A DNA stretch of 49,588 nt, taken from positions 1 to 49,588 of the forward strand of contig NZ_SRYM01000029.1 of assembly GCF_004793765.1 (NCBI RefSeq). The letters are read 5' to 3'. The translations under genes were made by a program, and so were the position numbers. How positions within the stretch are numbered: position 1 is the stretch's first letter; every line of letters starts with the position of its first letter. Under the pieces are notes generated by a model. That model was given only the letters and a program-made list of their open reading frames with translations, did not search any database and had not been told where the DNA came from. This document shows positions 862 through 41,074 of this stretch, piece after piece. Origin of the DNA: Parabacteroides distasonis (GTDB lineage: Bacteria; Bacteroidota; Bacteroidia; Bacteroidales; Tannerellaceae).

Positions 862-949
862 AAAGTCAATGGGACACGGCCGTAAAGTCATTGAGAAACC
901 ATCTCTATTCCATTGACTTTACCACCGTTTCCCATTGAGATACTATCGC
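862..949. repeat. 22-nt modular array 1, forming a long hairpin
   Basis: Four 22-base modules lie end to end: 862-883, 884-905, 906-927 and 928-949. Modules 1 and 2 both begin AAAGTCA. Modules 3 and 4 carry inverted cores CCATTGACTTT and CCCATTGA. As RNA, 866-899 pairs with about 906-938 almost continuously. The array ends 26 bases past the stop codon of the nucleotidase gene at 976 and has no U-tract, so it is not a classic terminator. Confidence 0.7.
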
Positions 950-975
950 AAACCAGACACTTCAAGGACGGAAAC

Positions 976-2706
976 TCATTCCCCGAAAAGAAACTTACAA
1001 TCCCGTTCGGCCGCCGGTCTCGTCCAATCCTGCGGGATCATTTGCCATTGGTTTAAAGGTTGTGGGCTAAGTACGCCCTTTTCCTTTATATATTGAATCA
1101 TATAATAACGGAGGTCTTTATCGGTCGAATGAATGATACGACTCTTTAACTCGTCTTGGGGAATACCGGCCCCTTTCGTCAATAACTCACCTCCTCCATT
1201 ACCTCGGTAAGAGTTGAGAGCTACTTTATACGTTTTATTCTCGTCGAAAGGCCTGTTATCCGCCATTTTCAAGATCGTAATCTTCTCACCCTCTGGTTTC
1301 GTTACGTCCACGGTGTAAATGATACCAGCTGCGGAGTCAAAGTTAAAACTGAAGTTGACGAATGAGACATAATTCTCCTGTCCTTTCTTTCTCTCTTTCA
1401 ATAATAAGACATGATCGTCCGGAGATTTCATCCGGTTGGTCCACATAGCGTATGATTCCTCCAAGAAACCTTTGATCTCGGCTCCCGTCAAATTCATCGT
1501 ATAAAGCATATTCTCATATTTGTAAAGACTGAACATATCGCTGATCGTGATATCCCCTTTATCTATTTTTGCGTCAAAGGATAACGGGGCGGCAAAAGAG
1601 ACGTCCGCACCAGTCAACTCCAATTGTAAAGAGTGAATAAAATCAATAAAAGCGGATGGCCCAAAGTAAGCGGGACGGGTCGCGATACTCTCCGTAAAAG
1701 TTCCCACCTTCTCGGAGACAAAATCATTCACCGCTTTGTATTGCGGAGCGAATTTCTCCATAAACTCCTCGCTAGGCTCCAACTTATCCACATCCGTCAA
1801 AACACCCGATACTTGTTTATCCAAAACCTTTCCATGCTCCATCTTTAACACGACATCAACGGAACCGACTACACGCCCATTACTTGCCGGATTTATCAGT
1901 AACACGGAATCTCCCTCGATATTCGCCACCTTACCACAATACCGGCGATGATCATGCCCCATCATAACCACATCGAAGCCCGGAATGCGCTGGGCAACCT
2001 CCATCGACGCATCCTCACGGTACTGGCCAGACATGGTACGAGCCTCGTTTCCCGCATGAAAGATACCTACCACAACATCCGGCTTCTCCTTCTCCTGAAT
2101 GATCTTCATCCATTTACGGGCCGTCTCTTCCATATCGGCGAAATAAAGACCTTGCCACAGAGTCTCCGGCAACCATACAGGAATAGCCGGAGTAATCATC
2201 CCCAGTACAACGATCTTCACACCGTCACGCTCAAATACCTCATAGGGCTTTAAATAGGTCTCCCGGTCGGAGGTACGGATAATATTGGCACCCAAGATTG
2301 GGAAATCACATTGTTTGATCCAACGATCGAAAACGGCATGGCCAGCCTCTACATCATGGTTACCCATATTTCCCGCATTGTACCCCATATAATTCATCAT
2401 GGCGGAAGCTATATGCGTAGAGACCGTATCCATGAAATTATAATAATACGCCGAAGGTTGTCCTTGCAAGATATCGCCATTATCCAATAGCAAAAGGTTA
2501 TCGCCATACGCCCGGCGTTCTTCTTGCACGAACGAATATACCCGTGCCAGACTTCCTCCCCACTCCCGCTGCTCGATAAAATTATACGGGAAGAAGTTTC
2601 CATGGATATCACCGGTTTCCACTAATTTCAACTTTACTTCCTTCGTTGTCGCCGACAGACCGAGAGCGACCAGCAGCAATAAGGCAATTGAATAAACTCG
2701 TCTCAT
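976..2706 (-). CDS. Periplasmic 5'-nucleotidase / 2',3'-cyclic phosphodiesterase family protein (UshA-like)
   Basis: A secreted metallophosphoesterase that should remove phosphate from extracellular nucleotides so nucleosides can be taken up. The first 20 residues form a signal peptide (MRRVYSIALLLLVALGLSAT). The metal-binding motifs of the calcineurin-like domain follow in order: TGDIHG near residue 33, DNGDILQGQ near 75, GNHD near 116, FHAGNE near 216 and GHDHR near 250. The C-terminal half (about 330-540) is the 5'-nucleotidase substrate domain, including RGNGGGE. At 576 residues it has normal family length. It starts 18 bases after the broken rhamnosidase gene on the same strand, so it was probably cotranscribed with it. 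Substrate specificity cannot be read from sequence. Confidence 0.88.
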   Translation of the reverse strand: MRRVYSIALLLLVALGLSATTKEVKLKLVETGDIHGNFFPYNFIEQREWGGSLARVYSFVQEERRAYGDNLLLLDNGDILQGQPSAYYYNFMDTVSTHIASAMMNYMGYNAGNMGNHDVEAGHAVFDRWIKQCDFPILGANIIRTSDRETYLKPYEVFERDGVKIVVLGMITPAIPVWLPETLWQGLYFADMEETARKWMKIIQEKEKPDVVVGIFHAGNEARTMSGQYREDASMEVAQRIPGFDVVMMGHDHRRYCGKVANIEGDSVLLINPASNGRVVGSVDVVLKMEHGKVLDKQVSGVLTDVDKLEPSEEFMEKFAPQYKAVNDFVSEKVGTFTESIATRPAYFGPSAFIDFIHSLQLELTGADVSFAAPLSFDAKIDKGDITISDMFSLYKYENMLYTMNLTGAEIKGFLEESYAMWTNRMKSPDDHVLLLKERKKGQENYVSFVNFSFNFDSAAGIIYTVDVTKPEGEKITILKMADNRPFDENKTYKVALNSYRGNGGGELLTKGAGIPQDELKSRIIHSTDKDLRYYMIQYIKEKGVLSPQPLNQWQMIPQDWTRPAAERDCKFLFGE

Positions 2707-2724
2707 ATCAGGATTTTAGATAGA

Positions 2725-5151
2725 TTAATGACGCGAAGATAACGAAATAACCTGTTCGCCCGGTTTCAACGGGATTTCTTTTCCATTCCAGATAAATATA
2801 CCCGTAGTACCTTCCGGCAAGACCAGACGGGCGGTTCCCTCACCTCTCTCATCCAATTTATAAGCGGCGGTCACGCTTCCAAGCGGATGTGGGATCGTAC
2901 CGGAAACCTCCTTCAGTTTTCCCAAAGACGGAGCGATCCGTATCTTCCTAAATCCGGGAGCATCACTATCTATCCCCAACAAGATCCGGTAAAACTCGAT
3001 ATTCGGACTGGCTCCCCAAGCATGGCAATCCGAACGAGACGGCTCCGGCATCTCAGCCCATGTAGTCAATCCCAATGCCATCTGATCCCGCTATATTTGT
3101 AAGTTATCCAAGAATTGATCCCCTAGGCCGGAGGCTTTTAACGCTTGATTCAAGTAATAACGAAAATAGATCGTGCATTGGATCAAGCTCGTATCCGCTA
3201 AGGTTTGGGTCATCACCTTTACGGCCTCCTCCCCTTTCGTAACCCCAGTTAGAATCGCCAAGGCATTTACATGCTGGGAATAGCCTCGATGATCCTGCGT
3301 ATCGGCGAATAGATTACGGGCAGCGTCCCAATATTTCGGGCGGATCGTCTTACGCATCTCGGTAGCGATCTCCCGATAATGATCTGCCATGGCAGGAAGG
3401 CCGATCGCTTGCTCCATCTCCGCCGCAAACTCCAAGGTCATTATATACATCAAATCCTGGAGCGCCGAGTTTCCCTCTTTCTCCCGTATCGGCTCACCAT
3501 AATCAAAGCCAGCCGCCCAATCCACGAAGAACCAATGAGGAACGTAGGACAAACTATAATCCGGCTTCAACCATTGCTCGTACCACGACAAAACCTGACG
3601 GTAAGCGGGAAGCAAGGTCTTCATGTATGCCTCATCCCCACGGTACATCCAATAATCGTGCCCCATACAAATCCACCAGAGAGAGAACGAGGATATAAAC
3701 TGATGTACGCTAGACGGATATCGGCTCATCGTAATTCCTTCCGCCACCATGGACTGCCGTCCTTGCTCTATGGCATTCTTCACCATATAAGGGTCTGATG
3801 TATTATACATGGAAATCATTGCCTGTATACGTGTATCCCCGAAATATTGCAGTTGCTCGTAATACGGGCAGTCCATATACGTCTCATTGGCGCACAGACG
3901 AGCGGTACGCCAGCCTATCTCAAGCATACGGCCCAGCTCCTCATGCCCCGGAGCGGAGAAAGCGGTCTCGTTACGGAAGGGATAAGCGGAGAAAGTCCCA
4001 TATATATCCTCGATCACCAAAGGCTCGGAAGCTGTCTTCACTTTCAACTCCACATATCTCCATGTACGCCACCACAGGGAGGTGAAAAGACGATTATCTC
4101 CCCCATCAGCCAGTATCTTATCCTCGTACCCGATAAACCGCTTATCCGTCAACTCATCCCGATGCCCCTTGCCATTCAGCGCATACGATTTAGTGGTCGA
4201 TTCTTCTTCTTGCCTATAAAGGGCTTCCGAATAACCGATACGAATCTCGGCCTCCTTTCCCTTGCTGAAGGCCAAGGAGAAATACCCCGTTGTCAGGTAA
4301 TCATTATCCAGAAGCAAGCGGACCTCCGTATTCGCCGGGATTGTCAAGGCTTTTGGCCAGTAAGGAAATCCTTGCGGGCATTCGATCCCTTCCGACCGGC
4401 GGAGCTTGGCCAGACGCTCGATCCGGCTGTCCATCGGAGGTATCGGGCTAGGAACCAGCAACCGTCCCGGGTAATCTCTCGATCCTTTCGTGGCACCCTC
4501 CATGCCCCGTACGGCCTTCTCCCATTTCCTGTCGTCGTAATCCGGTTGTTCCCAGCCCCAAGGATAAGCGGAGGCTTCCAATTCCTCACCCGGGCCGGCC
4601 ACGTAATACCCCAAGACCTGCCATTCGGTCCAAGGAGCGTACGCCTTATTACGCAGGCAGACCCAAGTGGTATCCGTATTTACGATCGCCTCTTGCCCCG
4701 TATTGCCTTGTAAGATAAAGCCAGTCTGATCGTAACTGATCTGGGCGGCAGGTTTCCGCTCGGCATAATTCCAGACGACAGAGGCCAGCGTATTCTTCCC
4801 CTTCCTCAGATAAGGAGCCAGATCCACCGTCTCGAAATTCCAGTTATAGACATCCCCACGGGCCGGGCCCAAGGATACCAATTTCCCGTTTGCATATAAT
4901 TTATAACGGTTATCGGCGGAAACATGGACGATAAACCGGGAAGGAACCACCTCCAGATCGAACGATTTACGAAAATGATAGACCCCATATACATTTGGAG
5001 CCTCACCCGGGTAGGAGATCCAACGGGCTTTCCAACGTCCCTCAAAAAGAGAAGGGTCGATCTTCTCCTGATGATACCCTTTCAGGCTAATCTGGGAAGA
5101 CAGGGAGAAGGCTTGAAACACAAAAAGCAAAAGGAATAAATAGTTTTTCAT
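2725..5151 (-). pseudogene. Alpha-L-rhamnosidase (GH78) interrupted by one in-frame TAG
   Basis: Glycoside hydrolase of family GH78, which cuts terminal rhamnose from plant or bacterial glycans. It has a signal peptide (LFLLLFVFQAFSLSSQ), a beta-sandwich N-terminus, and an (alpha/alpha)6 barrel from about residue 390 with ANETYMDCPYYEQLQY. The frame stops at TAG 3093-3091 after residue 686 (DNLQI). It then continues in the same frame with RDQMALGLTTWAE through the usual C-terminal barrel and beta domain to 2725. Restoring one codon gives about 808 residues, a normal GH78 length. The family often has tryptophan at this position, so TGG to TAG is the simplest event. The cut removes the last barrel helices, so the truncated product is probably inactive. 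A sequencing error is possible. Confidence 0.85.
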
Positions 5152-5186
5152 ACAAACACGGTATTATTTGAGATTAACGATCCGAA

Positions 5187-5216
5187 CAAAGGTACAAAAA
5201 AAGAGAAAGCACCAAA
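5187..5216 (-). promoter_or_regulatory. Promoter of the rhamnosidase-nucleotidase unit
   Basis: Minus strand TACCTTTG (5194-5187) with TTTG (5216-5213) 18 bases upstream. The spacer is slightly shorter than usual. It lies 36 bases ahead of the start codon at 5151. Confidence 0.55.
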
Positions 5217-5272
5217 AGAACTTTTGCCTTTTGACGCTTTCCCTCACAATATACCGGATGCCCGATCCTCCA

Positions 5273-6667: not shown

Positions 6668-6764
6668 AAGCACCGCCACGATCCGTGACAGTGCTTCTAG
6701 AAAATCATAAGCGCTATTTCGGTTTGCGACAGCACTTCTACACTGTCACGGTTTTTGACAATGC
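6668..6764. repeat. Modular array 2 (irregular member)
   Basis: A degenerate 41-base direct repeat starts at AAGC 6668 and again at 6709, each copy containing GACAGTGCTTCTA or GACAGCACTTCTA. An 11-bp perfect inverted pair, CCGTGACAGTG (6683-6693) and CACTGTCACGG (6741-6751), spans it. A third GACAATGC abuts the iorB stop codon. The period is less exact than in the other arrays. Confidence 0.55.
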
Positions 6765-7346
6765 CTACTGAATCCCTCGAGCTAAATCATAGCCCGCTTT
6801 CAATGCCTTTAAGTTCATATTGACAATCTCCTCGCCCTTACGACCGAATATCTGACGGATTCCCGCCTCGATCTTATCGTAATCGATACCTAGGAACGGG
6901 GTAGCTGCCCCCAACATCACGATATTGGCGGCACGGACAGAACCCGCTTCCTTGGCGATCTCCTCCACGTCCAATACGACCTTGTGAGGGAGTTTGTCCA
7001 ACTCGGCGTTCACTTTCTCGATCTCCGGATAGTTCGGGATGTTCACGAACGGACGGGAGTTTGTCACCAGCCAACCCTCTTTTTTCAGGTAAGGCAGATA
7101 ACGCAAGCTCTCCATCGGTTCCAAGGAGATGATCAAATCTGCGTGGCCCTTAGGGATCAAGTCCGAGGCGATCGGCTCATCGGAAAGACGCAGGTTAGAC
7201 TGCACGTCTCCACCCCGCTGACTCATACCGTGTACTTCCGCTTGCTTCATATACAGACCTTCTTTTAAGGCGGCTTCTCCAATAACGGCGGCGATAGAAA
7301 GGATACCCTGTCCTCCTACGCCTGATAGTATAATATCTGTCTTCAT
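6765..7346 (-). CDS. iorB: Indolepyruvate ferredoxin oxidoreductase, beta subunit
   Basis: The small subunit of the enzyme that oxidatively decarboxylates aryl 2-oxoacids, made by transamination of Trp, Phe and Tyr, to aryl-acetyl-CoA while reducing ferredoxin. The 193-residue protein has the gamma-type oxidoreductase fold: DIILSGVGGQGILSIAAVIG at the start, EVHGMSQRGGDVQSNLRL near 40-57, and SLEPMESLRYLPYL near 76-89. The start is the ATG at 7346. It overlaps the iorA stop as ATGA, which implies translational coupling. A longer frame reaching 7388 is only the iorA 3' end read in another frame. Confidence 0.88.
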   Translation of the reverse strand: MKTDIILSGVGGQGILSIAAVIGEAALKEGLYMKQAEVHGMSQRGGDVQSNLRLSDEPIASDLIPKGHADLIISLEPMESLRYLPYLKKEGWLVTNSRPFVNIPNYPEIEKVNAELDKLPHKVVLDVEEIAKEAGSVRAANIVMLGAATPFLGIDYDKIEAGIRQIFGRKGEEIVNMNLKALKAGYDLARGIQ

Positions 7347-8944
7347 TTCTTGCTTGCTTTTTTCTTTCTGGTTAATGTCTGGATACACTCACGGCGGGGG
7401 ATCAATACGGATACGCCCTTGTACTCGATCTCCTCGCGGATGATGGCTTTCATCTCCTCGTAGTTCTTTTTCAAAGGAACCATCACACGGATGTGAGCCG
7501 GGTCCACACCGATACCGGCGCAGATAGACTCCAGACGTCCTGTTCCGGCGGAATCCTGCCCTCCGGTCATGGCCGTCGTCTCATTATCGGAGATAACGAT
7601 AGTGATGTTCGTGTTCTCGTTCACGCAATCCAGCAAACCAGTCATACCGGAATGGGTAAACGTAGAATCGCCGATCACGGAGATAGCAGGGAATACACCC
7701 GCGTCGGAAGCCCCCTTCGCCATCGTGATGGAGGCCCCCATATCGATACAAGAATCGATCGCACGGAAAGGAGGCAAAGCTCCCAAGGTATAACAGCCGA
7801 TATCGCCAAACACCTTAGCCGTACCGTTATACTCGGCGATCACCTCGTTCAAGGCCTCATACATATCCCGGTGTCCACAACCTTGGCACAATGCGGGCGG
7901 ACGTTGCTCAACCACCTCGGGGATCGCGTAATAGCTCTGGATCTCCTTACCCAAGGCTTTGCCTACCGCGTCTGGCGTAAGCTCGCCGTCACGCTGAAGC
8001 GTACCGTCCAAACGGCCATGAACCGTCACTCCCTTCCCCAAGAAACCCTTCAATTGCTCCTCGACAACCGGATATCCCTCTTCCAACACTAAGATCTCCT
8101 TACACTCGCCAACGATCTTCTCCACTTGCTTTCTCGGAAGCGGATACTGGGAGATCTTCAATACGGGATGCTCGAAACCGTCCGGATAATTCTCGGAAAG
8201 ATAATTGAAAGCGATACCCGTCGTGATGATACCCAAGTCTTTATTCGGGGCATCGAAATACTTATTATACGCGGAATTCTCGGAAGCTTCCGTGAAAGCC
8301 TCTTGAGACACCAGCAAACTCTTGAAACGTTTACGAGCCAATGCCGGGAGTAAGATAAAACGTTGACGACCGTCTTCCGGACAACTCATCCGGTTCTCCG
8401 GCTTCAACGGGCTGGTTACGACACCGGCACGAGAATGCGCCATACGGGTCGTTACACGCAGCAAGATAGGATACCCTAATTTCTCGGACAGCTCGAACCC
8501 ATGATATACCATATCATAAGCCTCTTGCTGGCTGGATGGCTCGAACATCGGGATCATGGCGAAATTGCCATAAACACGGTTGTCTTGCTCATTCTGGGAA
8601 GAGTGCATGGATGGGTCGTCGGCCGTAAGGATGATCATACCTCCGTTGATACCGCTCATAGCGGCGTTCATAAAGCAATCGGCGGCTACGTTCAAGCCTA
8701 CATGTTTCATGCAGCAAAGCGCACGTTTACCGGCATAGCACATACCCAAAGCGGCTTCCATGGCGGTTTTCTCATTCGCGCTCCAGCGACAATGGATACC
8801 TCTTTCCTTCGTTACCGGAGAACCTTGGATATATTCCGTGATTTCAGTAGAAGGGGTTCCCGGGTATGCGTACACCCCGGAGATGCCAGCGTCTATAGCG
8901 GCTTGCGCTATGGCCTCGTCCCCCAAAAATAAATGTTTTTCCAT
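7343..8944 (-). CDS. iorA: Indolepyruvate ferredoxin oxidoreductase, alpha subunit (no ferredoxin domain)
   Basis: The thiamine-diphosphate subunit of IOR. The N-terminal pyrimidine-binding domain has GVYAYPGTPSTEITEYI near residues 23-39. The C-terminal TPP/Mg domain has PALCQGCGHRDMYEAL near 349-364, GDIGCYTLGALPP near 380-392, and GDSTFTHSGMTGL near 425-437. Classical IorA is about 600 residues or more and ends in two [4Fe-4S] motifs. This one stops at 533 with a lysine-rich tail (LTRKKKASKK) and no cysteine cluster. The stop is fused to the iorB start, so this is a built-in architecture rather than a frameshift. Electrons must leave through another carrier. The pathway matches amino-acid fermentation. 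Confidence 0.88.
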   Translation of the reverse strand: MEKHLFLGDEAIAQAAIDAGISGVYAYPGTPSTEITEYIQGSPVTKERGIHCRWSANEKTAMEAALGMCYAGKRALCCMKHVGLNVAADCFMNAAMSGINGGMIILTADDPSMHSSQNEQDNRVYGNFAMIPMFEPSSQQEAYDMVYHGFELSEKLGYPILLRVTTRMAHSRAGVVTSPLKPENRMSCPEDGRQRFILLPALARKRFKSLLVSQEAFTEASENSAYNKYFDAPNKDLGIITTGIAFNYLSENYPDGFEHPVLKISQYPLPRKQVEKIVGECKEILVLEEGYPVVEEQLKGFLGKGVTVHGRLDGTLQRDGELTPDAVGKALGKEIQSYYAIPEVVEQRPPALCQGCGHRDMYEALNEVIAEYNGTAKVFGDIGCYTLGALPPFRAIDSCIDMGASITMAKGASDAGVFPAISVIGDSTFTHSGMTGLLDCVNENTNITIVISDNETTAMTGGQDSAGTGRLESICAGIGVDPAHIRVMVPLKKNYEEMKAIIREEIEYKGVSVLIPRRECIQTLTRKKKASKK

Positions 8945-9059: not shown

Positions 9060-9130
9060 ATCACTGCAACCCGCCTTGCAGCATCACTGCACAGGCGTTG
9101 CAGAACTACTGCAAGGCGGGTTGCAGTGAT
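9060..9130. repeat. 22-23-nt modular array 3 (three hairpin units)
   Basis: ACTGCA recurs at 9063, 9086 and 9108. On the leftward RNA each unit is a small hairpin of the form CTGCA-N6/8-TGCAG. The outer units 9060-9081 and 9109-9130 are perfect reverse complements over 22 bases, so one long stem is an alternative fold. The array ends 23 bases past the mltG stop codon and also lies in the iorA upstream region. There is no U-tract. Confidence 0.7.
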
Positions 9131-9153: not shown

Positions 9154-10203
9154 TTACCGGATCCGGCGCCGATTCAACTCTGCCCGATAGCGGTTGGCAT
9201 TGCGGTTATGCTCCGCCAAGGTCACGGCGAAATTATGCCGTCCCGAGAAATCCTCCTTAGCGCACATGTACAAATATTTATGTTTCGTATGGTTCAATAC
9301 GCTATTCAATCCCTTGATCGTAGGGATCCGCAGAGGACCGGGAGGCAGGCCCGCATACTTATAGGTATTATAAGGAGAATCTACTTCCAAATGCTCAAAT
9401 AAGATACGTCGCAAAGAAAAATCCCCCACCGCGAACTTCACGGTAGGGTCTGCCTGTAAAGGAATACCGGCATGAAGGCGGTTGATATAAAGGCCCGCCA
9501 CGATCGGATATTCGTCCGATGCCGCCGTCTCTTCTTCCACGATAGAAGCCAGAATAGACACCTCGATCGGTCTAAGCCCGATCTCCTCAGCCTTTTTCGA
9601 TCGTTCCGGTGTCCAGAAAGCGTCGTATTCACGTTTCATACGACGTATAAATTTATCTGCGGATATATTCCAATAAATCTCATAGGTATTCGGAATGAAG
9701 AGGGCATGGATCGTTTCCGGGGTAAAACCTAAAGAGTCGCAATACACGGAATCACTCAATAAACGCAGGAGCTCTTCCTTCCCGAACATCAATTGATCAC
9801 TTATACGCTCCGCCAGATCCTCCTTGAGACGGATATTATTAAAAGTAACACGGGTCGCTACCTGATGCCCTCTCCGCAAGTCGTTCAATAAGGTTAAATT
9901 ACTCATGCCGGGCTTCACGGCGTATCGACCGGTACGCATAGACGCAGGATATTTCAGCAATCCACTCAATTGCTTAAAGCTACCGATACGGAGACAGTTC
10001 GCCGAATCCCCCAACTGCCGGCAAAGATCATCAAAATCCCTCTTATCATTTATATAGACATAAACCGGCTTATCCGGCTTAAAATTCGGAGCCCAAGCCA
10101 AACGGTACGCCCAAAAGCCTCCACCACCTATCAAAACAACGAGAATCGCTATCAAGGCGATGGTTATCGAACGCTTCGATAAAATTTGTTTGTTCAAATC
10201 CAT
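9154..10203 (-). CDS. mltG: Endolytic transglycosylase MltG (YceG family)
   Basis: A membrane-anchored lytic transglycosylase that cuts nascent peptidoglycan and limits glycan strand length. One N-terminal membrane helix (ITIALIAILVVLIGGGGFWA, about 13-32) is followed by a LysM-like region and the YceG catalytic domain. The catalytic glutamate motif SILASIVEEETAASDEYPI lies near 212-230, with NRLHAGIPLQADPTV after it. At 349 residues it is a normal family member. The start is the ATG at 10203. The frame extends upstream to a GTG at 10338, but that extension would overlap the promoter and has no ribosome-binding site. Confidence 0.9.
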   Translation of the reverse strand: MDLNKQILSKRSITIALIAILVVLIGGGGFWAYRLAWAPNFKPDKPVYVYINDKRDFDDLCRQLGDSANCLRIGSFKQLSGLLKYPASMRTGRYAVKPGMSNLTLLNDLRRGHQVATRVTFNNIRLKEDLAERISDQLMFGKEELLRLLSDSVYCDSLGFTPETIHALFIPNTYEIYWNISADKFIRRMKREYDAFWTPERSKKAEEIGLRPIEVSILASIVEEETAASDEYPIVAGLYINRLHAGIPLQADPTVKFAVGDFSLRRILFEHLEVDSPYNTYKYAGLPPGPLRIPTIKGLNSVLNHTKHKYLYMCAKEDFSGRHNFAVTLAEHNRNANRYRAELNRRRIR

Positions 10204-10233
10204 GAATAATCTATTGAATATCAGAATAAGGCA

Positions 10234-10241
10234 CAAAAGTA
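10234..10241 (-). promoter_or_regulatory. -7 promoter box of mltG
   Basis: Minus-strand TACTTTTG lies 30 bases upstream of the chosen mltG start. It supports the ATG at 10203 rather than the upstream GTG. Confidence 0.5.
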
Positions 10242-10274
10242 GTATCTTTTTTCGAAAAAAATGATGTGCAAAGC

Positions 10275-10306
10275 CTTGTTTATTTAAAATTATAGTTATA
10301 CCTTTG
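10275..10306 (+). promoter_or_regulatory. Promoter of tRNA-Ser
   Basis: CTTG (10275-10278), a 20-base spacer and TACCTTTG (10299-10306). It lies 36 bases upstream of the tRNA and fires divergently from mltG. Confidence 0.65.
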
Positions 10307-10342
10307 CATCGCAATTCTAAGGAAGAAGCACAGAACACACAA

Positions 10343-24062: not shown

Positions 24063-24144
24063 TTACAATGCCCATTATAAGCACCCTTGATTGCCCATTA
24101 TAAGGAGCTTACGATGGGCATTGTTACATGCTTAGAATGGGCAT
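24063..24144. repeat. 23-nt modular array 4
   Basis: TGCCCATTATAAG occurs at 24069 and 24092, exactly 23 bases apart. The inverted core ATGGGCA occurs at 24114 and 24137, again 23 apart. The pattern is two direct modules then two inverted ones. It lies 10 bases past the glpK stop codon, between glpK and glpF. No U-tract is present. Confidence 0.7.
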
Positions 24145-24154: not shown

Positions 24155-25654
24155 TCACTCCGCCCAGTTCGATGAACGGCCCACCGCCTTATGCCAACCG
24201 GTCAGCAAACGGATCGATTCAGCCTCCCGCATACACGGGGTAAATACCTTATCCATCGACCATTGCTCTTTCAGTTCATCAATATCTTTCCAGTAGCCGA
24301 TCGCCAAGCCTGCCAAATAAGCGGCTCCCAAGGCAGTCGTCTCCAATACATTCGGACGTACGACCGGACAACGGCAGATATCGGACTGGAATTGCATCAA
24401 GAAGTTATTAGCGATAGCGCCGCCATCTACCCGGATTTCTTTCGGCTTGGCGTGAATATCGTTTTCCATGGCCATCAATACATCATATACTTGATAACAA
24501 ATACCCTCCAAAGCCGCACGGGTTAAATGAGCCGCCGTAGTTCCGCGGGTAATCCCAATAATAGCGCCACGTGCGTATTGATCCCAATACGGCGCACCCA
24601 AACCCGTCAACGCCGGCACAAAATAAACGCCCCCATTATCACTGACGGATTTCGCCATTTGCTCCGTAATCGAGGCATTCGGAATCAAGCCGATCCCATC
24701 CCTCAACCATTGGACGACGGCACCTCCCACAAAGACACTCCCTTCCAAGGCATAGGTTGTCTGATCCCCCAGTTTCCATGCGATCGTTGTCAATAGGTTA
24801 TTCTGGGAAAGAACTGGTTCCTTGCCGGTATTCAAGATCATAAAGCAACCCGTTCCGTAGGTTGTCTTGAGCATACCATCCTCTACGCAGAGCTGGCCGA
24901 ACAGAGCCGCCTGTTGATCGCCGGCCATACCGGATACCGGAATGCCTTTCTTAAAAACAGGGGTTGATGTCTCGCAGTAAACCTCACTACAACCTTTCAC
25001 CTGCGGTAACATCGAGGTGGGTATCGTAAACAAATCCAATAACTCTTGGTCCCATTGCAAAGTACGGATATTGAAAAGCATGGTACGGGAAGCGTTCGTC
25101 ACATCCGTGATGAATTGAGCGCCCCGAGTCAACTTCCAAACCAACCAAGTATCTACCGTACCGAAGCACAGTTCTCCCCGCTCCGCACGCTCCCGGATAC
25201 CCTTTACGTTATCTAATATCCATTTTATTTTCGTGGCGGAGAAATAGGCGTCGATCACCAATCCGGTCTTCTGCTGGATACGTTCCGCCCAACCTTGCGA
25301 TTTAAGCTCCTCGCAATAATCCGCCGTACGGCGATCTTGCCATACGATCGCGTTGTATACGGGAAAACCGGTCTCCCGGTCCCAGATGATGGTAGTCTCC
25401 CGCTGGTTAGCGATTCCGATACAGGCGATATGGCTATCCGTGACATCTGCTTTCGCCATCGCCTCCTTAATGACTGATGATTGGGTGTACCAAATCTCAT
25501 TCGGGTCGTGCTCTACCCAGCCCGGTTTCGGGAAATACTGTTGAAATGGCTTCTGAGCCAACGTTATAATAGTTCCTTGATGATTAAACAGGATAGCCCG
25601 GGAGCTAGTGGTTCCCTGATCGATCGCCAGCACATATTTATTTCGAAAATTCAT
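24155..25654 (-). CDS. glpK: Glycerol kinase
   Basis: Phosphorylates glycerol to sn-glycerol 3-phosphate. It is a 499-residue FGGY-family kinase. N-terminal [14 protein letters not shown] is near residues 11-24, the substrate region is [13 protein letters not shown] near 83-95, [13 protein letters not shown] is near 265-277, and [18 protein letters not shown] is near 409-426. Length and motifs are complete. It lies 32 bases after the dehydrogenase gene on the same strand. Confidence 0.95.
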
Positions 25655-27367: not shown

Positions 27368-27455
27368 TTTCTATTGGAAGAAACTATAGTTTCATAGATA
27401 TGAAACTATAGTTTTGCTATAGGAAAACAAAAGTTTTCCTTATGGGAAATTAAAA
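27368..27455. repeat. 22-nt modular array 5 (exact period)
   Basis: Four modules of exactly 22 bases lie at 27368-27389, 27390-27411, 27412-27433 and 27434-27455. Each begins TTT and has A-rich or AG endings, and modules 1 and 2 share GAAACTATAG. On the leftward RNA each module can form its own short hairpin, for example GTTTCAT with ATGAAAC around a 4-base loop. The array ends 23 bases past the stop of the PBP gene. Confidence 0.75.
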
Positions 27456-27478
27456 AAACTATAACAATCTGATTATTG

Positions 27479-29824
27479 TCACTCAAACATCTTATCGATA
27501 CCTCCTGTATCCGGTGGAGTCGTAGGGCTATCTTCCTCCCCTCCTTCGCTACATGGGTTCGCATATTTCTCGGGGATCTCGAAGCTCTCATCTTCCGAGT
27601 AGCCTAACGTTTTATCTTTATAAACCTTTTGCATATAAAGGGCGTAAATCGGTAACGCCATACTCGCTCCCTGTCCTTCCGCCAAGCGGTCGAAATGGAT
27701 GGAACGATCCTCGCCTCCTACCCAGCATCCGGAAACCAAGCTTGGCGTAAATCCCATAAACCAACCATCAGAGTTATTCTGGGTCGTGCCAGTCTTGCCA
27801 CCCATCTCCGCCTTAATCCCATAGCGGAAACGTACACGCCCTCCGGTACCGCCGTCGATCACGCTTTTCAACATATGTAACATCTTATAAGAAGCATCTT
27901 CCGTCAGCACCTCACTCATCTGTGGGGTAAAGTTCGCAATTGTATTTCCATATGAATCTTCTATACGGGTCACGAATAAAGGTTCTACCCGGATGCCCTT
28001 GTTGGCAAATACAGTATAGGCTCCGACCATCTCACCCACCGATACATCCGGAGTACCCAGACAGACCGAGATAACCGGATCGATATGATTCTTCAAGCCG
28101 AAAGAATGAAGCAAACGAACAAACGTATAAGGTGAGAGCTGGCTCATCAGATAAGCTGTTACCCAGTTATCCGAGTTCTGTAATCCCCATTTAATCGTAA
28201 CCATCTCGCCAATCCGTTTAGCGCTGGCGTTACGAGGAATCCACAAACGTCCGTTCTCATCCATCAACTGCTGCTGCACATGTAGCATCTGGTCGCAAGG
28301 ACTGATCCCCTCGATCATCGCCAACGAATAAAGGAACGGTTTCATGGTTGAACCAATCTGACGGCGACCGCCATTCACCATATCATATTGGAAGTCATTA
28401 TAATCAATACCACCTACATATGCCTTGACCTGTCCGGTGCGAGGGTCCATCGACATAAACGCCGTACGCAAGAAACTCTTATGATAACGAATCGAATCCA
28501 AGGGAGACATGACCGTATCAATCGGACCATCCCAACTAAACACACGCATATCAACAGCCTTCTCAAACTCCTTTCGCATATCGGCCTCAGCCATTCCACT
28601 CTTTTTCATCGCCCGGTAACGATCTGTCTGGTGCATCGCACGCATTAGCATCGTGTCTACCTGGCCGACACTTACGTCTTTTGAGAACGGAGCATAACTA
28701 CGTCCCTTCTTTTCCCGGAAGAAAGCCGGTTGAAGATCTTTACTCATATGTTCACGGACAGCGTCTTCCGCATATTTCTGCATACGGGAATCGATACTCG
28801 TATAGATTTTCAGGCCATCCGTATAAAGATTATAGAATTCTCCATCGGCCTTTTTATTTTTGTTACACCATCCATATAACGGATTCGTAACCCAAGATAA
28901 CGAGTCCTCACTGAATTTCTGGGATTGCCAAGAGGCGTAATTTTTACGCTCCGGTTTCTTCGCAGTCATTGCCAGACGAAGATATTCACGGAAGTAAGGA
29001 GCCAAACCGTCTTTATGGTCCATACGGGTAAAATGTACGACCAAGGGTAAAGCCTTCAACGAATCACATTCCGCCTTGGTTATGTACCCAGCCTTTTCCA
29101 TCTGTTCCAAAACCGTATTACGACGACCGACGGTACGCTTGTTATGGCGAACCGGATTGAAATAAGAAGGGTTCTTGCACATGCCTACCAACGTGGCGGC
29201 TTCCTCGATCTTTAAGGTTTTAGGGGTCTTCCCGAAATACACACGAGACGCAGATTGGATTCCCACGGCATTGTACAAGAAGTCAAACTTATTCAGATAC
29301 ATATTTATAATCTCTTCCTTCGTATAATAACGTTCCAATTGAACAGCGATCACCCATTCGATCGGTTTCTGGAAGAGACGTTCCATTACATTATCGGCAC
29401 TCGGCGAGAATAATTGCTTCGCCAATTGTTGGGTAATGGTACTACCGCCACCACCGCTTTTTTGCATCAAGATACCCCGCTTCACGATGGCACGAAACAA
29501 ACCCTGCGCATCGATACCGCTATGTTCGGCAAACCGGATATCCTCGGTAGCGATCAAGGCTTTCACCAAATCCGGCGAAAGATCCTCGTAGTTCACGTAA
29601 ATACGATTGTCCTTGCTATGTGCATAGGCTCCCAGCGCCTTTCCGTCTGAGGAGATAACTAGGGAAGCATATTTATCAATCGGGTTCTCCAATTGTTCCA
29701 CCGGAGGCATATAACCAATTGAACCATTCGCTATCGCCATAAACACCATTACCACCGCCCCTAATATAGCGAGGTATACTATCCAACAAGAAATAAGGAT
29801 ACCTTTTGTAATCTTTGATGCCAT
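27479..29824 (-). CDS. Class A penicillin-binding protein (PBP1A-like)
   Basis: Bifunctional peptidoglycan synthase with one N-terminal membrane helix (GILISCWIVYLAILGAVVMV). The glycosyltransferase domain shows EDIRFAEHSGIDAQGLFRA near 93-111, GGGSTITQQLAKQLF near 126-140, and EEIINMYLNKFDFLYNAVGI near 170-189. The transpeptidase domain shows SxxK in IGSTMKPFLYSL near 485-496, SDN in QNSDNWVTAY, and GGKTGTTQNNSDGWF near the C-terminus. The ATG at 29824 is preferred; the frame extends to a GTG at 29839 without support. The tail is acidic, proline-rich and probably flexible. About 781 residues is a typical length. Confidence 0.93.
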   Translation of the reverse strand: MASKITKGILISCWIVYLAILGAVVMVFMAIANGSIGYMPPVEQLENPIDKYASLVISSDGKALGAYAHSKDNRIYVNYEDLSPDLVKALIATEDIRFAEHSGIDAQGLFRAIVKRGILMQKSGGGGSTITQQLAKQLFSPSADNVMERLFQKPIEWVIAVQLERYYTKEEIINMYLNKFDFLYNAVGIQSASRVYFGKTPKTLKIEEAATLVGMCKNPSYFNPVRHNKRTVGRRNTVLEQMEKAGYITKAECDSLKALPLVVHFTRMDHKDGLAPYFREYLRLAMTAKKPERKNYASWQSQKFSEDSLSWVTNPLYGWCNKNKKADGEFYNLYTDGLKIYTSIDSRMQKYAEDAVREHMSKDLQPAFFREKKGRSYAPFSKDVSVGQVDTMLMRAMHQTDRYRAMKKSGMAEADMRKEFEKAVDMRVFSWDGPIDTVMSPLDSIRYHKSFLRTAFMSMDPRTGQVKAYVGGIDYNDFQYDMVNGGRRQIGSTMKPFLYSLAMIEGISPCDQMLHVQQQLMDENGRLWIPRNASAKRIGEMVTIKWGLQNSDNWVTAYLMSQLSPYTFVRLLHSFGLKNHIDPVISVCLGTPDVSVGEMVGAYTVFANKGIRVEPLFVTRIEDSYGNTIANFTPQMSEVLTEDASYKMLHMLKSVIDGGTGGRVRFRYGIKAEMGGKTGTTQNNSDGWFMGFTPSLVSGCWVGGEDRSIHFDRLAEGQGASMALPIYALYMQKVYKDKTLGYSEDESFEIPEKYANPCSEGGEEDSPTTPPDTGGIDKMFE

Positions 29825-29888
29825 CTTTTTATATTTCACGGTATAGATAAGAGACTCATCCTATCCACAACGACCTAATTTAAGATCA

Positions 29889-33887: not shown

Positions 33888-33893
33888 CACTGT

Positions 33894-33962
33894 GTTTTTC
33901 ATGGTATTAGATTTAAGGTTAGTAATGAAGATTGGTCATCCGTGACGGATGACCATTTTTTT
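33894..33962 (+). ncRNA. Small RNA candidate with its own terminator
   Basis: A short unit of about 70 bases is defined by a TAnnTTTG box on the left and a strong intrinsic terminator on the right. The terminator stem TGGTCATCCG (33933-33942) pairs with CGGATGACCA (33946-33955), followed by seven T. The 5' half (TTCATGGTATTAGATTTAAG, 33898-33917) resembles leader RNAs I associate from memory with Bacteroidales; this is unverified. No reading frame of useful length is inside. It could be a free small RNA or the leader left behind by a lost gene, since a kinase relic follows. Confidence 0.55.
33933..33962 (+). terminator. Intrinsic terminator
   Basis: A ten-pair stem with loop TGA, followed by seven T at 33956-33962. 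Confidence 0.85.
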
Positions 33963-34046
33963 GCTTTGATAATCAAAAAAAAAACTTCTACCTTTACAAA
34001 AGATCTATCTATTAAGAATCATGACACACACATAAATATTGAATAA

Positions 34047-36308: not shown

Positions 36309-36325
36309 TTGAGAATTAAATTATT

Positions 36326-37024: not shown

Positions 37025-37083
37025 AATAATCCTATTTCCATTAAAAACACATTAATCCTTATATGGGTTATTAAGCAAATCGT

Positions 37084-37091
37084 TACATTTG
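37084..37091 (+). promoter_or_regulatory. -7 promoter box of the DUF1080 gene
   Basis: TACATTTG lies 43 bases ahead of the ATG at 37135. No -33 box is clear. Confidence 0.45.
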
Positions 37092-37134
37092 TAATGATAT
37101 TAACAAATCTAATCTAATAACAATTTTAAGTAAC

Positions 37135-37872
37135 ATGAAAAATTTGTTCAAATCATTCTTGATTCTTTCAGCCATAGCTATGGCTATCCCCTGTATCGCT
37201 CAAACTCCGAATACATTGACTAAAAAGGAGAAAAAAGCTGGCTGGGAATTATTATTCAACGGAAAAGACTTCTCAGGATGGCGTCAATGTAACGGAACCG
37301 CTATGCCTGCGAACTGGGTTATAGAAGACAATGCAATGAAAGTATTTACCGGCGAAGGCAAGAAACCGGGACAAGGCGCTAATGGCGATATCCTTTACCA
37401 GAACAAAAAGTTCAAAAACTTCGAGCTTTCGGTAGACTGGAAAGCCAGCAAGATGGGAAACTCCGGTATCTTCTATTATGTACGCGAGGTACCCGGTAAA
37501 CCTATTTATTATGCGGCTCCCGAAGTACAGGTGCTAGATAACGTGGACGCAACCGACAACAAATTAGCAAACCACCTAGCAGGTTCTCTATATGACATGC
37601 TTCCCGCAGATCCGAAAACAGTTAATCCTGCCGGCGAGTGGAATACGATCGTAATCCGTGTAAAAGATGGAAAAGTAACGCATACTCAAAATGGCAAAAA
37701 AGTAGTTGAGTACACTTTATGGAGCAAAGAGTGGGATGATCTGGTAGCTAACAGTAAATTCAAGAACTTCCCGGGTTTTACCGAAGGTATCTCTAAAGAA
37801 GGTTATATAGGTCTGCAAGATCATGGCTATCCTATATGGTTCCGTAATATCAAGATCCGTGAACTAAAATAG
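37135..37872 (+). CDS. Secreted DUF1080 (3-keto-disaccharide hydrolase-like) protein
   Basis: A 245-residue exported protein. The signal peptide covers about 1-22 (FLILSAIAMAIPCIAQ). The rest is one concanavalin-like DUF1080 domain: GWELLFNGKDFSGWR near 36-50, KNFELSVDWKASKMGNSGIF near 94-113, and GYIGLQDHGYPIWFRNIKIR near 223-242. Some family members hydrolyse 3-keto-glycosides and others are uncharacterised. No partner sugar oxidoreductase is nearby, so the substrate is open. Confidence 0.85.
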   Translation: MKNLFKSFLILSAIAMAIPCIAQTPNTLTKKEKKAGWELLFNGKDFSGWRQCNGTAMPANWVIEDNAMKVFTGEGKKPGQGANGDILYQNKKFKNFELSVDWKASKMGNSGIFYYVREVPGKPIYYAAPEVQVLDNVDATDNKLANHLAGSLYDMLPADPKTVNPAGEWNTIVIRVKDGKVTHTQNGKKVVEYTLWSKEWDDLVANSKFKNFPGFTEGISKEGYIGLQDHGYPIWFRNIKIRELK

Positions 37873-37897
37873 TTCTTCGAATCTATCGTATATAAAT

Positions 37898-37934
37898 AAA
37901 AAGCCCGGGATTCTGATAAATCACCGGGCCTTTT
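37898..37934. terminator. Bidirectional terminator between DUF1080 gene and guaA paralogue
   Basis: GCCCGG (37903-37908) pairs with CCGGGC (37924-37929) and the stem extends through A/T pairs with one mismatch. Read leftward, a T-rich run follows; read rightward there are four T. It serves both convergent genes. Confidence 0.75.
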
Positions 37935-37960
37935 CATATCTGTTTAAAAAGTAAGCCCAA

Positions 37961-39268
37961 TTACTCCCACTCAATTGTCGCATTCGGTTTCGGAGACATA
38001 TCGTAGCATACACGGTTCACGTTCTTCACCTCTTTCAAGATACGATCCGTAATCTTCATCAAGATTGGCCAATCAACCGGTTCGATCGTAGCGGTCATGG
38101 CATCTACCGTATTGACGGCACGGATAATCACGGGCCATTCGAAAGAACGGGCGTTATCACGTACGCCAACCGACTTAAAGTCGGGTACTACCGTAAAGTA
38201 TTGCCATACCTTTTTATCCAATCCGGCGTTCTTGAACTCCTCCCGTAAGATCGCATCCGACTCACGTACCGCTTCCAGTCTATCACGAGTGATAGCGCCC
38301 AAGCAACGTACGCCCAAACCCGGTCCGGGGAACGGCTGACGATAAACCATGTCATAAGGCAAACCTAACTCTACGCCACAAGCACGAACCTCGTCCTTGA
38401 ATAATTGACGCAAAGGCTCAACCAACTCAAATTGCAAATCTTCCGGCAGACCGCCTACGTTATGATGGGATTTCACCATCTTAGCCGTCTTCGTTCCGCT
38501 CTCCACGATATCCGGATAGATCGTTCCTTGAGCCAAGAAATCGATTCCATCTAATTTGCGAGCTTCTTCCTCAAATACACGGATAAACTCACCACCGATA
38601 ATCTTACGCTTTTGCTCCGGATCTTCCACGTCGGCCAGCTTGTTCAAGAAACGATCGGTAGCGTCTACATACACCAAATTGGCGTTCAACTGGTTCTTGA
38701 AGACCTCAACGACATCCTCAGACTCGCCCTTACGCATCAAGCCATGGTTAACATGTACGCAAACCAATTTATCGCCGATCGCTTTCAAAAGCAAAGCGGC
38801 TACTACAGAGCTATCAACACCTCCAGACAAGGCCAGCAGAACTTTCTTATCCCCTACCTGACGCTTTACCAATTCAATCTGGTCATTGACAAAATTCGTC
38901 ATATTCCAGTTTGCCTCAGCCTTGCAAGTATCGAACACGAAAGACTTGACAGCGCCCTTGATCGCCTCGACATCATCCGTAAACTCCGGCAATTTAACCT
39001 CGCACAACGCCTTATCGTGACCTGCGGCCATTACAGGAGTGCCCATCTCGTAAATACCCGGATTCACGTCGATAGCTACACCGTCGATAACATTGTTTGG
39101 GCCACCATTGATAATGATACCTTTCACGTTTGGCAAGGCTTTTAATTCCTCAACCGTGATGTCATGCGGATAAATCTCACTATAAACGCCTAACGCACGA
39201 ATAGCACGAGCCAACACCGTATTCTCATGACTACCTAAATCCAAGATAACAATCATATCTTGCTTCAT
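37961..39268 (-). CDS. GMP synthase paralogue with degenerate glutaminase domain
   Basis: A 435-residue relative of GuaA. The ATP-pyrophosphatase half is intact: [18 protein letters not shown] near 144-161, VKSHHNVGG near 263-271, [14 protein letters not shown] near 310-323, and the conserved C-terminal ATIEWE. The N-terminal amidotransferase is cut to about 110 residues. Where normal GuaA has the nucleophile in GICYG, this has VMAAGHDKAL, and the His-Glu part of the triad is missing altogether. It cannot release ammonia from glutamine by itself. It could use free ammonia, or ammonia made by the complete GuaA encoded just upstream, or have a new role. The spacer between the two is 51 bases, same strand. 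Confidence 0.85.
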   Translation of the reverse strand: MKQDMIVILDLGSHENTVLARAIRALGVYSEIYPHDITVEELKALPNVKGIIINGGPNNVIDGVAIDVNPGIYEMGTPVMAAGHDKALCEVKLPEFTDDVEAIKGAVKSFVFDTCKAEANWNMTNFVNDQIELVKRQVGDKKVLLALSGGVDSSVVAALLLKAIGDKLVCVHVNHGLMRKGESEDVVEVFKNQLNANLVYVDATDRFLNKLADVEDPEQKRKIIGGEFIRVFEEEARKLDGIDFLAQGTIYPDIVESGTKTAKMVKSHHNVGGLPEDLQFELVEPLRQLFKDEVRACGVELGLPYDMVYRQPFPGPGLGVRCLGAITRDRLEAVRESDAILREEFKNAGLDKKVWQYFTVVPDFKSVGVRDNARSFEWPVIIRAVNTVDAMTATIEPVDWPILMKITDRILKEVKNVNRVCYDMSPKPNATIEWE

Positions 39269-39319
39269 GTGACTTTTAAATTTTATTGATTTTACACTTT
39301 GTTATACCTAAGACAAATG

Positions 39320-40840
39320 TCACTCCCACTCGATGGTTGCAGGCGGCTTCGAGCTGATGTCGTACACGACTCTATTTACGCCTTTCACCTTATTGATAAT
39401 CTCGTTGGAAACTTTGGCGAGGAACTCGTACGGAAGCTGCGCCCAATCGGCGGTCATAGCGTCCGTGGAAGTTACCGCACGTAAAGCTACCGTATTCTCA
39501 TAGGTACGCTCATCGCCCATTACACCTACGGATTGAATCGGAAGTAAGATTACCCCAGCTTGCCAAATCTTATCGTAAAGTCCCCACTCACGCATCAATG
39601 ACATATAGATATCGTCAGCGTCTTGCAGGATACGTACCTTTTCCGGCGTGATATCACCCAAGATACGGATACCCAATCCCGGTCCCGGGAACGGATGGCG
39701 CTTGATCAAATGCGGTTGCATACCCAACTCCATACCGACACGGCGAACCTCATCCTTGAAAAGAAGACGAAGCGGCTCGACGAGTTTCAAGTTCATCGTA
39801 TCCGGAAGTCCGCCCACATTATGATGGCTCTTGATAACCGTACCTGTGATAGAAAGCGACTCGATCACATCCGGATAAATCGTACCTTGCCCCAGCCACT
39901 TGATATCTTTCAGCTTATGCGCCTCCTCATCGAAGACATCGATAAATCCTTTGCCGATGATCTTACGTTTCTTCTCCGGTTCCGTAACGCCCGCTAGTTC
40001 TTTATAGAACTTATCTTTCGCGTTTACGCCGATCACGTTCAATCCTAAATGCTCATAATCCCTCATTACGTTCTCGAACTCATTCTTGCGCAGCAAACCA
40101 TGATCCACGAAAATGCAAGTCAAGTTCTTACCGATCGCCTTATTCAGCAATACGGCCGTAACAGATGAATCCACACCGCCGGAAAGAGCCAAGATCACCT
40201 TGTCATCTCCCAATTGCTCCTTCAACTCAGCTACGGTAGATTCGATAAAGGAAGCCGGTGTCCAATCCTTGGCGCATCCGCAAATATTCAAGAAGTTATC
40301 CAGCAACTTCGTACCGTCTGTCGAATGGAATACTTCCGGATGAAACTGAACGCCCCACGTTTGCTCACCTTCCACATGGTAAGCGGCAGCCTTCACGTCG
40401 TCCGTGCTGGCGATCACCTTGAAATTATCCGGCAATACGGTAATCGTATCTCCATGAGACATCCATATCTGCGAACCCACATGGATCCCTTTCAGTAATT
40501 CATCCTCACCATCAATGTGCGACAAATTAGCACGTCCATACTCACGTGAATTAGCTGGTTCCACATTACCTCCGGATGTATAAGCTAGAAACTGCGCTCC
40601 ATAACAAATACCTAAGACGGGATACTTCCCCCGTATCTCGGTCAAATCAGCCTTAAAGGCATTCTCGTCGTATACGGAATAAGGACTTCCGGAAAGGATC
40701 ACACCTTTCACGTCGGTAGCGTCATGCGGGAATTTGTTATAAGGAACGATCTCACAATACATATTCAACTCTCTGACCCTACGGCCGATAAGCTGGGTTG
40801 TTTGCGAGCCGAAATCAAGAATAATAAGTTTCTCGTGCAT
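39320..40840 (-). CDS. guaA: GMP synthase (glutamine-hydrolysing)
   Basis: Converts XMP to GMP. It has 506 residues with both halves complete. The glutaminase domain has [17 protein letters not shown] near 74-90 (Cys nucleophile) and [10 protein letters not shown] near 163-172 (His and Glu). The synthetase domain has [16 protein letters not shown] near 218-233, [11 protein letters not shown] near 332-342, and [12 protein letters not shown] near 378-389. The tail is ATIEWE. It is the first gene of a pair with the degenerate paralogue. Confidence 0.95.
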
Positions 40841-40868
40841 GCAATTATGATTATTTAATTGAGTGGCG

Positions 40869-40876
40869 CAAAGGTA
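40869..40876 (-). promoter_or_regulatory. -7 promoter box of guaA
   Basis: Minus-strand TACCTTTG lies 28 bases ahead of the guaA ATG. Confidence 0.5.
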
Positions 40877-40986
40877 GTAATAAATTCGGGAAGCATAAAC
40901 ACACTGGGCAAATATTCTTCCTTATCACGATACTTTTAAAAGATCTTCCCTTGTCCTATTACGCCTTTCCTCCTGAGACATTCATT

Positions 40987-41074
40987 ATCCACCATCCGTT
41001 GCATGATCGTCCACCAACTGTTGCATGATCATGCAACGGATGGTGGACGATCATGCAACAGCCATTAGAAGATG
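40987..41074. repeat. 22-nt modular array 6 with long stem
   Basis: Four 22-base modules lie at 40987-41008, 41009-41030, 41031-41052 and 41053-41074. Modules 1 and 2 share TCCACCA and GTTGCATGATC; modules 3 and 4 begin with the inverted core ATGCAAC. Positions 40998-41026 pair with 41031-41059 in 27 of 29 places around the loop GATC. Unlike the other arrays it is not right after a protein gene: it lies between guaA and the tRNA-Cys terminator. Confidence 0.75.

Follow-up and report, generated by a model that had tools for sequence, protein, structure and literature searches.

Periodic arrays at gene ends of a Parabacteroides contig

We analysed a 49,588-nucleotide stretch of the Parabacteroides distasonis contig NZ_SRYM01000029.1 (assembly GCF_004793765.1; genome G000 below), hereafter the window, in which six gene-free spots had been predicted, from the letters alone, to hold modules ("bricks") of 22 or 23 bases arrayed as direct and inverted copies (Table 1). 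When each spot was compared with 300 dinucleotide shuffles, direct self-matches at an offset of 21–23 nucleotides (nt) beat all 300 at five of them (862, 9060, 24063, 27368, and 40987), and inverted repeats were significant at all six; the array at 862, for example, had a direct score of 8.5 and an inverted score of 18 (0/300 shuffles for each). The remaining spot, 6668–6764, is a hairpin without periodicity, given that its direct repeats were not significant (177/300 shuffles equal or better) and its inverted score was 11 (0/300), and its slot is filled by other sequence in G004, G017, and L111. The predicted position of five spots within about 30 bases past the stop codon of a leftward gene also held, while the sixth, at 40987, lies between the start of guaA and two leftward tRNA genes; this element is also present in G004.

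Table 1. Arrays, hairpins, and neighbouring genes in the window
Position	Strand	Feature	Context or evidence
862..949	.	22-nt array, AAAGTCAATGG... modules	26 nt past stop of the 976-2706 (-) gene
6668..6764	.	Imperfect hairpin region, non-periodic at 22-23 nt	Adjoins iorB directly
9060..9130	.	Family F3 array, 23-nt bricks	23 nt past mltG stop
24063..24144	.	Family F2 array, 23-nt bricks, order DDII (D, direct; I, inverted)	10 nt past glpK stop
27368..27455	.	22-nt array, GAAAC-TATA-GTTTC + 8	23 nt past PBP1A-family stop
40980..41077	.	Family F1 element, 98 nt, four 22-nt bricks, ATTCAT...ATGAAT ends	Flanked by guaA and two tRNA genes
976..2706	-	5'-nucleotidase/phosphoesterase-family gene	Upstream of 862 array; matches below curated cut-offs
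6765..7388	-	iorB, indolepyruvate oxidoreductase subunit beta	
9154..10338	-	mltG, endolytic transglycosylase MltG	3' slot holds the F3 array
24155..25654	-	glpK, glycerol kinase GlpK	3' slot holds the F2 array
27479..29839	-	PBP1A-family gene	3' slot holds the 27368 array; TIGR02074 452.9 bits, below cut-off 508.75
39320..40840	-	guaA (GMP synthase)	Start ~140 nt from F1 element
41232..41434	-	Two tRNA genes, 41232-41303 and 41363-41434	Minus-strand upstream of F1 element
33892..33965	+	FopS-family small RNA (RF04319)	72.3 bits

Brick anatomy and lattice

Each brick is an imperfect palindrome with a spacer, and the lengths of arm, loop, and spacer vary by family while their sum stays at 22–23. 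F2 bricks read CTTACGAT-GCCC-ATCGTAAG-NNN (8+4+8+3=23), F1 bricks are of the type ATGCAAC-AGCC-GTTGCAT-GATC (7+4+7+4), and F3 bricks read CTGCAA-CCCGCC-TTGCAG-CATCA (6+6+6+5=23). F2 is a lattice of 23 base pairs (bp) whose cells are flipped in place: core-to-core spacings are 23 in like orientation, 17 for D-I, and 29 for I-D in 153 of 159 cases from four genomes, with four whole-cell skips and two misfits as the exceptions. Four cores were found in 46 of 54 F2 arrays, and four 22-nt cells in 9 of 11 parsed F1 elements (by a parser admitting spacings of 21–23 only), the other two being L247, with three cells, and L041, a false coding match.

A finer periodicity appears in the centres of dyad symmetry. 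In G000 intergenic DNA, spacings of 11, 22, 33, 44, and 55 bp occurred 25, 17, 15, 13, and 7 times (1, 2, 1, 0, and 0 after shuffling), those of 11–44 stemming from 9–12 different gaps each, with minor peaks at 16, 28, and 34. Peaks in other Parabacteroides stood at 22 and 11, and also at 41 and 18, those in Bacteroides at 22 and then at 16 and 28, and the spacing of 22 was seen three times in Escherichia coli (shuffled 0). The 11-bp ladder is secure in G000 and partly seen elsewhere. In A-form RNA, and in negatively supercoiled DNA in vivo, a helical turn takes close to 11 bp; a brick of 22–23 bp may correspond to two such turns.

Occurrence across genomes

The period was scanned in 440 kb of G000, comprising the window and 20 stretches from three contigs (about a tenth of the genome), with genes called by a simple hexamer caller that missed, for example, iorB in the window. 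Across 193 intergenic regions (66.8 kb) there were 54 self-matches at offsets 21–23 compared to 2.6 in shuffled sequence: 34 at offset 22 (1.6 per shuffle) and 10 each at 21 and 23, with echoes at 44 (12 self-matches) and 66 (8). Once period-7 arrays, low-complexity runs, and gaps >900 nt were excluded, 32 arrays remained versus 1.0 per shuffle, and seven control period windows held 0–2. The periodic arrays are real and genome-wide. Coding sequence (353.5 kb) had no clear peak, with seven matches at 21–23 and 3–5 in five other windows.

Brick arrays occur in Bacteroidales and are densest in Parabacteroides. In samples short of whole genomes, named Parabacteroides contained 16 arrays (0 shuffled), further Parabacteroides 13 (0.3), Tannerellaceae 7 (1.0), other Bacteroidales 2 (0), and Bacteroides 13 (1.3), the last signal being weaker since control windows hold 1–3 each. 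There was little excess beyond the order, with 5 weak matches in 38.9 kb of intergenic DNA from other orders of the class (1.3 shuffled), 2 matches in 40.7 kb from other classes (1.6 shuffled), and no arrays in 13.3 kb from E. coli K-12, and therefore the arrays are not phylum-wide in this sample.

Two other kinds of repeat were met in the scan. A second class of gene-junction hairpins, removed from the counts, is built from the 7-mers AATTGAG/AATTGAA, GATTTAT, and CTTAACT with periods of 7 and 21 (L032 1626-1677, L045 10707-10798, L040 677-751, window 41325-41356, and other Bacteroidales loci). Tannerella metagenome-assembled genomes (L142 2520, L146 3302 and 8874) carry long direct arrays of 21- to 23-nt units, in copy numbers far above the usual four-brick units of Parabacteroides.

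Families and dispersal

The original prediction held that the arrays are generated locally and are not dispersed copies of a repeat, and this is contradicted by their membership of families. Of the four spots searched, three were members of dispersed families, with relatives at 9 (40987), 23 (24063), and 16 (9060) distinct places of the own genome besides the query (E <= 0.001); the 862 array had one weak partial relative there. Clustering the sampled arrays by sequence (34 entries, the 40987 array being entered twice) gave 21 groups, of which 16 had a single member, the 27368 array being one such case. What did stand is that architecture is shared without sequence kinship between families, namely a 22–23-base period and direct plus inverted modules.

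Family F2 is patchy, with matches (E 1e-6) in 6 of 38 genomes of the genus (G000 23, G004 22, G017 15, G023 10, G020 17, G036 7; these counts span both strands, and the number of places is smaller) and none at this threshold in the other 32. Modules within one four-cell F2 array were no closer to each other than modules of different arrays: likeness within arrays was 0.690 in G000, 0.691 in G020, and 0.659 in G004, versus 0.701, 0.736, and 0.665 between arrays at the same index and 0.696, 0.693, and 0.648 at different indices. A locally grown minisatellite was rejected on this basis. In G020, the order DIII recurs in 9 of 13 F2 arrays (either strand), and this shared order, together with the somewhat closer same-index bricks, fits copying of whole units. 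Flanking genes argue for dispersal, since a match to an F2 flank of G000 or G004 was found at only 2 of the 13 loci in G020 and at none of the five in G036.

Position relative to genes

A bias to 3' ends, as predicted, was apparent in tandem gaps, where 34 of 41 arrays (seven groups pooled) lie nearer the 3' end of the upstream gene. Convergent gaps held 13 arrays in G000 versus 4.0 expected from their length, 3 versus 1.7 in Bacteroides, and 0 versus 1.0 in named Parabacteroides. For F2, context was determined at 20 of the 23 other G000 places, 16 G004, 13 of 14 G020, and 5 G036 loci, leaving out five one-sided loci; the 49 loci with two flanking genes (those of G000 and G004 are partly orthologous and not all independent) comprised 25 convergent, 23 tandem, and 1 divergent, and 19 of the 23 tandem loci lie <=86 nt from the upstream stop. 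The nine F3 loci were three convergent, four tandem, and two divergent.

Families differ in placement habit because F2 is mostly convergent or tandem and F1 mostly divergent, which makes F1 the exception to 3'-end placement; it supplies three of the seven divergent arrays in G000. Most divergent F1 copies lie 100–180 nt upstream of a start codon, and their neighbours include guaA, an ATP-grasp PurT-like gene, thyA, cobD/cbiB, argR, an MgsA-type ATPase, and an IF-2B/MtnA-like gene. We rejected F1 as operators of a regulon, the neighbours having a weak nucleotide theme only, and found no tRNAs beside the F1 copies on L003, L004, L006, L008, L039, L047, and L050. Five F1 copies (L003, L004, L005, L047, and the window) stand upstream of genes with TAnnTTTG-like promoter boxes near the start codon (TACCTTTG, TAAGTTTG, TATATTTG, TACATTTG).

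Turnover between genomes

The same 3' slot can be filled differently in related genomes. At mltG, the F3 array of G000 is replaced by a different hairpin in G023 and by arrays of other sequence in G011 and G014 (by eye also in G001, G020, and G032), and G004 and G017 have no array. At glpK, F2 is present in G000 and G023 and absent from G004 and G017. Inverting 65 nt of the G000 copy lifted its alignment to G023 from 80 to 110.5, and no control inversion (n = 18) scored above 92.5, albeit one gained more (41.5 versus 30.5) from a lower start; a segment inversion separating these two genomes is therefore likely. Single bricks also come and go: at two F2 loci, the arrays of G000 and G004 are exactly one 23-nt brick apart in length, and single-brick duplication is seen at L308. 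No clean target-site duplications were recognised by eye at empty slots.

The slot past the PBP1A-family gene was read in 30 of 38 genus genomes. Arrays are found in G000, G004, and G023, with modules changed among them, and the slot is degenerate in G017, where no self-match was scored. The G004 bricks AACAAAAGTT/AACTTTTGTT correspond to AACTATAGTT/AACTATAGTT in G000, so that complementarity is retained. Among the other 26 genomes, 15 carry one strong hairpin by our own reading, most with a T run, and five of these 15 also have a 21-22-base self-match. Inspection by eye also showed a short AT-rich hairpin on the minus strand at window 27450-27478, directly past the PBP1A-family stop itself; in G000 and G004 a T run comes after this hairpin, and G017 retains its palindrome with changed arms.

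Over nine spanning F2 pairs from G000 and G004, 23 of 784 array sites differed (2.9%), compared to 446 of 4,912 neighbouring third codon positions (9.1%), and four of the nine arrays were identical where third codon positions differed by 5–11%.

Two other elements can be recorded here. L037 (G000, contig C89, 12600-13160) contains a CRISPR array with the repeat ATCTACAATAGTAGAAATTATACAAGGCTTATAGCC, which resembles Cas12a-type repeats, and L036 (979-1073) an intergenic 95-nt inverted-repeat element with GTAGAGACGGGGCGTGCCCCGTCTC ends that looks like a miniature inverted-repeat transposable element (MITE).

Terminators and folding

Most families share one trait of intrinsic terminators, a stable hairpin soon past the stop codon, and we asked how arrays associate with ordinary terminators in deduplicated convergent gaps of Parabacteroides (32 with an array and 63 without). 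A separate U-tract terminator was called in 5 of the 32 gaps with an array versus 30 of the 63 without (Fisher 0.003), and a separate strong stem in 3 versus 34 (Fisher 1.6e-5). In room-matched resampling, for which 29 of the 32 array gaps were matchable, values were never as low in 2,000 draws. Arrays thus replace separate terminators and stems in these gaps, and terminator-like calls inside or beside the array were commoner at array-bearing 3' ends of G000 (16/35 versus 28/124). The mutual exclusion is an indirect sign that transcription may end at arrays. Together with the PBP1A slot, which holds an array in one clade and a hairpin in 15 of 26 genomes outside it, it makes a 3'-end role likely.

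The arrays fold well, with z near -5 on both strands of 58 arrays and the sense strand the more stable in 39, and palindromy is equal on both strands. The transcript-end role suggested originally is in this sense borne out in spirit by the replacement of terminators and stems. A role at the RNA level, such as mRNA protection, is so far unsupported by stem mismatches.

Interpretation

We give a probability of about one half to the reading that the spots are REP-like (repetitive extragenic palindromic) mobile brick arrays serving as 3'-end termination structures. These elements, which are non-coding, form many sequence-unrelated families, the unit being usually four imperfect palindromes of 22–23 bp set head-to-tail or inverted, with a symmetry axis every 11 bp. 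Units come to occupy new 3' ends, can gain or lose a brick, are probably also altered by inversion, and would be retained because their arms are able to pair in RNA. A transcript entering from either side would then meet a hairpin cluster or one long hairpin, which would take the place of an ordinary terminator or 3'-end hairpin with no need for a U-tract. That transcription actually ends at the arrays we infer from the exclusion pattern, and the units presumably move by some route other than a Y1/RAYT (REP-associated tyrosine transposase) enzyme, none being found in G000.

Several results weigh against this reading. When every 3' end of G000 was counted, array-bearing ends had a separate terminator outside the array in 4/35 cases and ends with no array had one in 28/124, which is no significant deficit (p = 0.23). 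Convergent enrichment was clear only in G000 (13 versus 4.0), and divergent gaps were not avoided overall (7 versus 8.9 expected in G000, 5 versus 2.6 in Tannerellaceae); F1 is divergent at seven of nine two-sided loci, two of the seven being on 0.8-kb stretches with gene fragments only. There is no excess of U-tracts, with 3.22 T per 10 nt past 58 arrays and a background of 3.06, so the predicted lack of a U-tract was right on average and U-tract terminators were rejected as the identity of the arrays, even if six or more T follow 9 of the 58 (5.1 expected) and some arrays hold a hairpin and then T's. Mismatches in stems of the presumed sense strand numbered 50 G.T and 45 A.C, which is no wobble bias, and F1 arrays showed no folding advantage over module permutations, 67 of 300 of which were as stable on the plus strand and 60 on the minus (L041 and the three-cell L247 omitted); on these two grounds RNA-level covariation was rejected. 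Pooling all 19 comparisons (including G023 and overlapping spans) gave 5.0% differences in arrays, 7.2% in other intergenic sequence, and 12.1% at third codon positions; some arrays outpaced third codon positions (L311 9/85, window 27377 10/41), and pairs too diverged for alignment are not among the 19.

The absence of wobble bias and the equal palindromy of the strands are what would be expected if the arrays acted as DNA, with an oligomeric protein (a nucleoid protein, a topoisomerase, or a dedicated factor) binding dyads one or two turns apart and insulating genes or absorbing supercoils. Action of gyrase on E. coli bacterial interspersed mosaic elements (BIMEs) is a proposed precedent. The G000 dyad ladder, the strict 23-bp cells in any orientation, and F1 in divergent regions fit such a site as well, yet unrelated families would require one sequence-blind reader or many readers, and the replacement of terminator-like stems favours RNA. 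Of possible proteins, Y1/RAYT was the one searched for, with no match in G000, and on balance we regard a DNA-level site as unlikely. A further reading, which we hold to be about equally unlikely, is that Bacteroidales use a geometric code in place of a sequence code. Any palindromes with one axis per 11 bp, in four cells of 22–23 bp, would then mark a gene boundary, the reader being either RNA polymerase together with a partner or a DNA-binding protein blind to sequence, and unrelated families would have come to share one lattice by convergence or recruitment.

The patchiness of F2, brick gain and loss between close genomes, the probable inversion, and the precedent of BrickBuilt elements (see below) would all suit functionless selfish units of MITE or REP type that are tolerated at harmless sites such as 3' ends and convergent gaps. 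Such units do not predict that terminators are replaced, nor that four of nine orthologous arrays are free of differences, and no REP-type transposase was found; we consider this explanation quite improbable. Protection of mRNA 3' ends, in which arrays are transcribed through and block 3'-5' exonucleases while termination occurs further on, draws on the stable folds and the location at 3' ends, but termination further on sits poorly with convergent gaps that mostly have no separate terminator when an array is present, and the missing wobble bias is a further objection, leaving it very doubtful.

If the arrays act as terminators or insulators, Parabacteroides and its relatives in the gut may end or insulate genes in a way that has been overlooked, and extrapolation from 32 cleaned arrays in about a tenth of this genome suggests that some hundreds of genes per genome would be concerned. 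Operon annotation and the design of genetic tools would then change, as would the notion that REP-like elements are mere parasites. To our knowledge, gene ends are thinly mapped in Bacteroidales, which are dominant gut bacteria. The fixed 22–23-bp geometry over unrelated sequences raises the question of what measures length.

Comparison with known systems

The comparisons below draw on parts of the cited works. REP and BIME sequences, of the GTAG and CGTC superfamilies (PMC3733652) and associated with TnpA-REP (PMC6006769), resemble the arrays in being small palindromes of dispersed families, found past genes and in convergent gaps in both orientations, F1 placement being the exception. They differ in that a fixed 22–23-bp lattice is not described in the portions compared (PMC3733652, PMC6006769). 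For Bacteroidetes, a TnpA-REP subclass 2.6 with atypical structures is described (PMC3733652, PMC6006769), and therefore REP-type systems exist in the phylum; RepRanger lists three Bacteroidota genomes (PMC12306157). In G000 (99.99% complete), a search for Y1/RAYT (PF01797) gave 0 matches while being positive in 5 of 14 control genomes, and mobilisation of a RAYT/REP kind was rejected for this genome. Judging by name, we know of no Bacteroidales among the three genomes listed by RepRanger. No constant tag was found in the two families scanned, GTAG/CTAC being present in 3 of 213 F2 cells and 6 of 36 F1 cells and CGTC/GACG in 1 of 213 and 4 of 36.

Hairpin-cluster intrinsic terminators consist, like the arrays, of clustered hairpins just past stop codons, which have been proposed to terminate transcripts while depending less on a U-tract (PMC8355165). 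Repeated brick families and a fixed period are not described in the sections compared, and the string 'bacteroid' has 0 occurrences in the main text of that paper (PMC8355165). In an atlas of Bacteroides thetaiotaomicron, termination sites were mapped partly by a drop in coverage (PMC10994844).

The original prediction knew of no described element of this type, which overlooked a close one, the BrickBuilt MITE of Porphyromonas gingivalis; within the parts of the works compared, P. gingivalis is the only organism for which a 22–23-bp lattice is described. BrickBuilt consists of intergenic tandem 23-nt bricks without spacers at 19 loci of one genome, with predicted long stem-loops and a brick number that differs between strains, and its authors note that 22-, 23-, and 41-nt tandem repeats were reported earlier in strain W83 (PMC4596501). 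It is one family with a unique leader and tail, IS5-like terminal inverted repeats, and 1 to 22.8 direct repeats (PMC4596501). In-place flipped bricks, four-brick units, and many unrelated families, as found here, are not described in the text compared (PMC4596501), and terminal inverted repeats of the IS5-like GAGACCTTTGCA type were found at 0 of 54 F2 and 0 of 9 F1 arrays (<=300 nt, <=2 mismatches; shuffled 1.2 and 0.4). What the two have in common is the spacerless intergenic brick of 23 nt, as in the F2 lattice (153/159; other families 22), in members of the same order, Bacteroidales.

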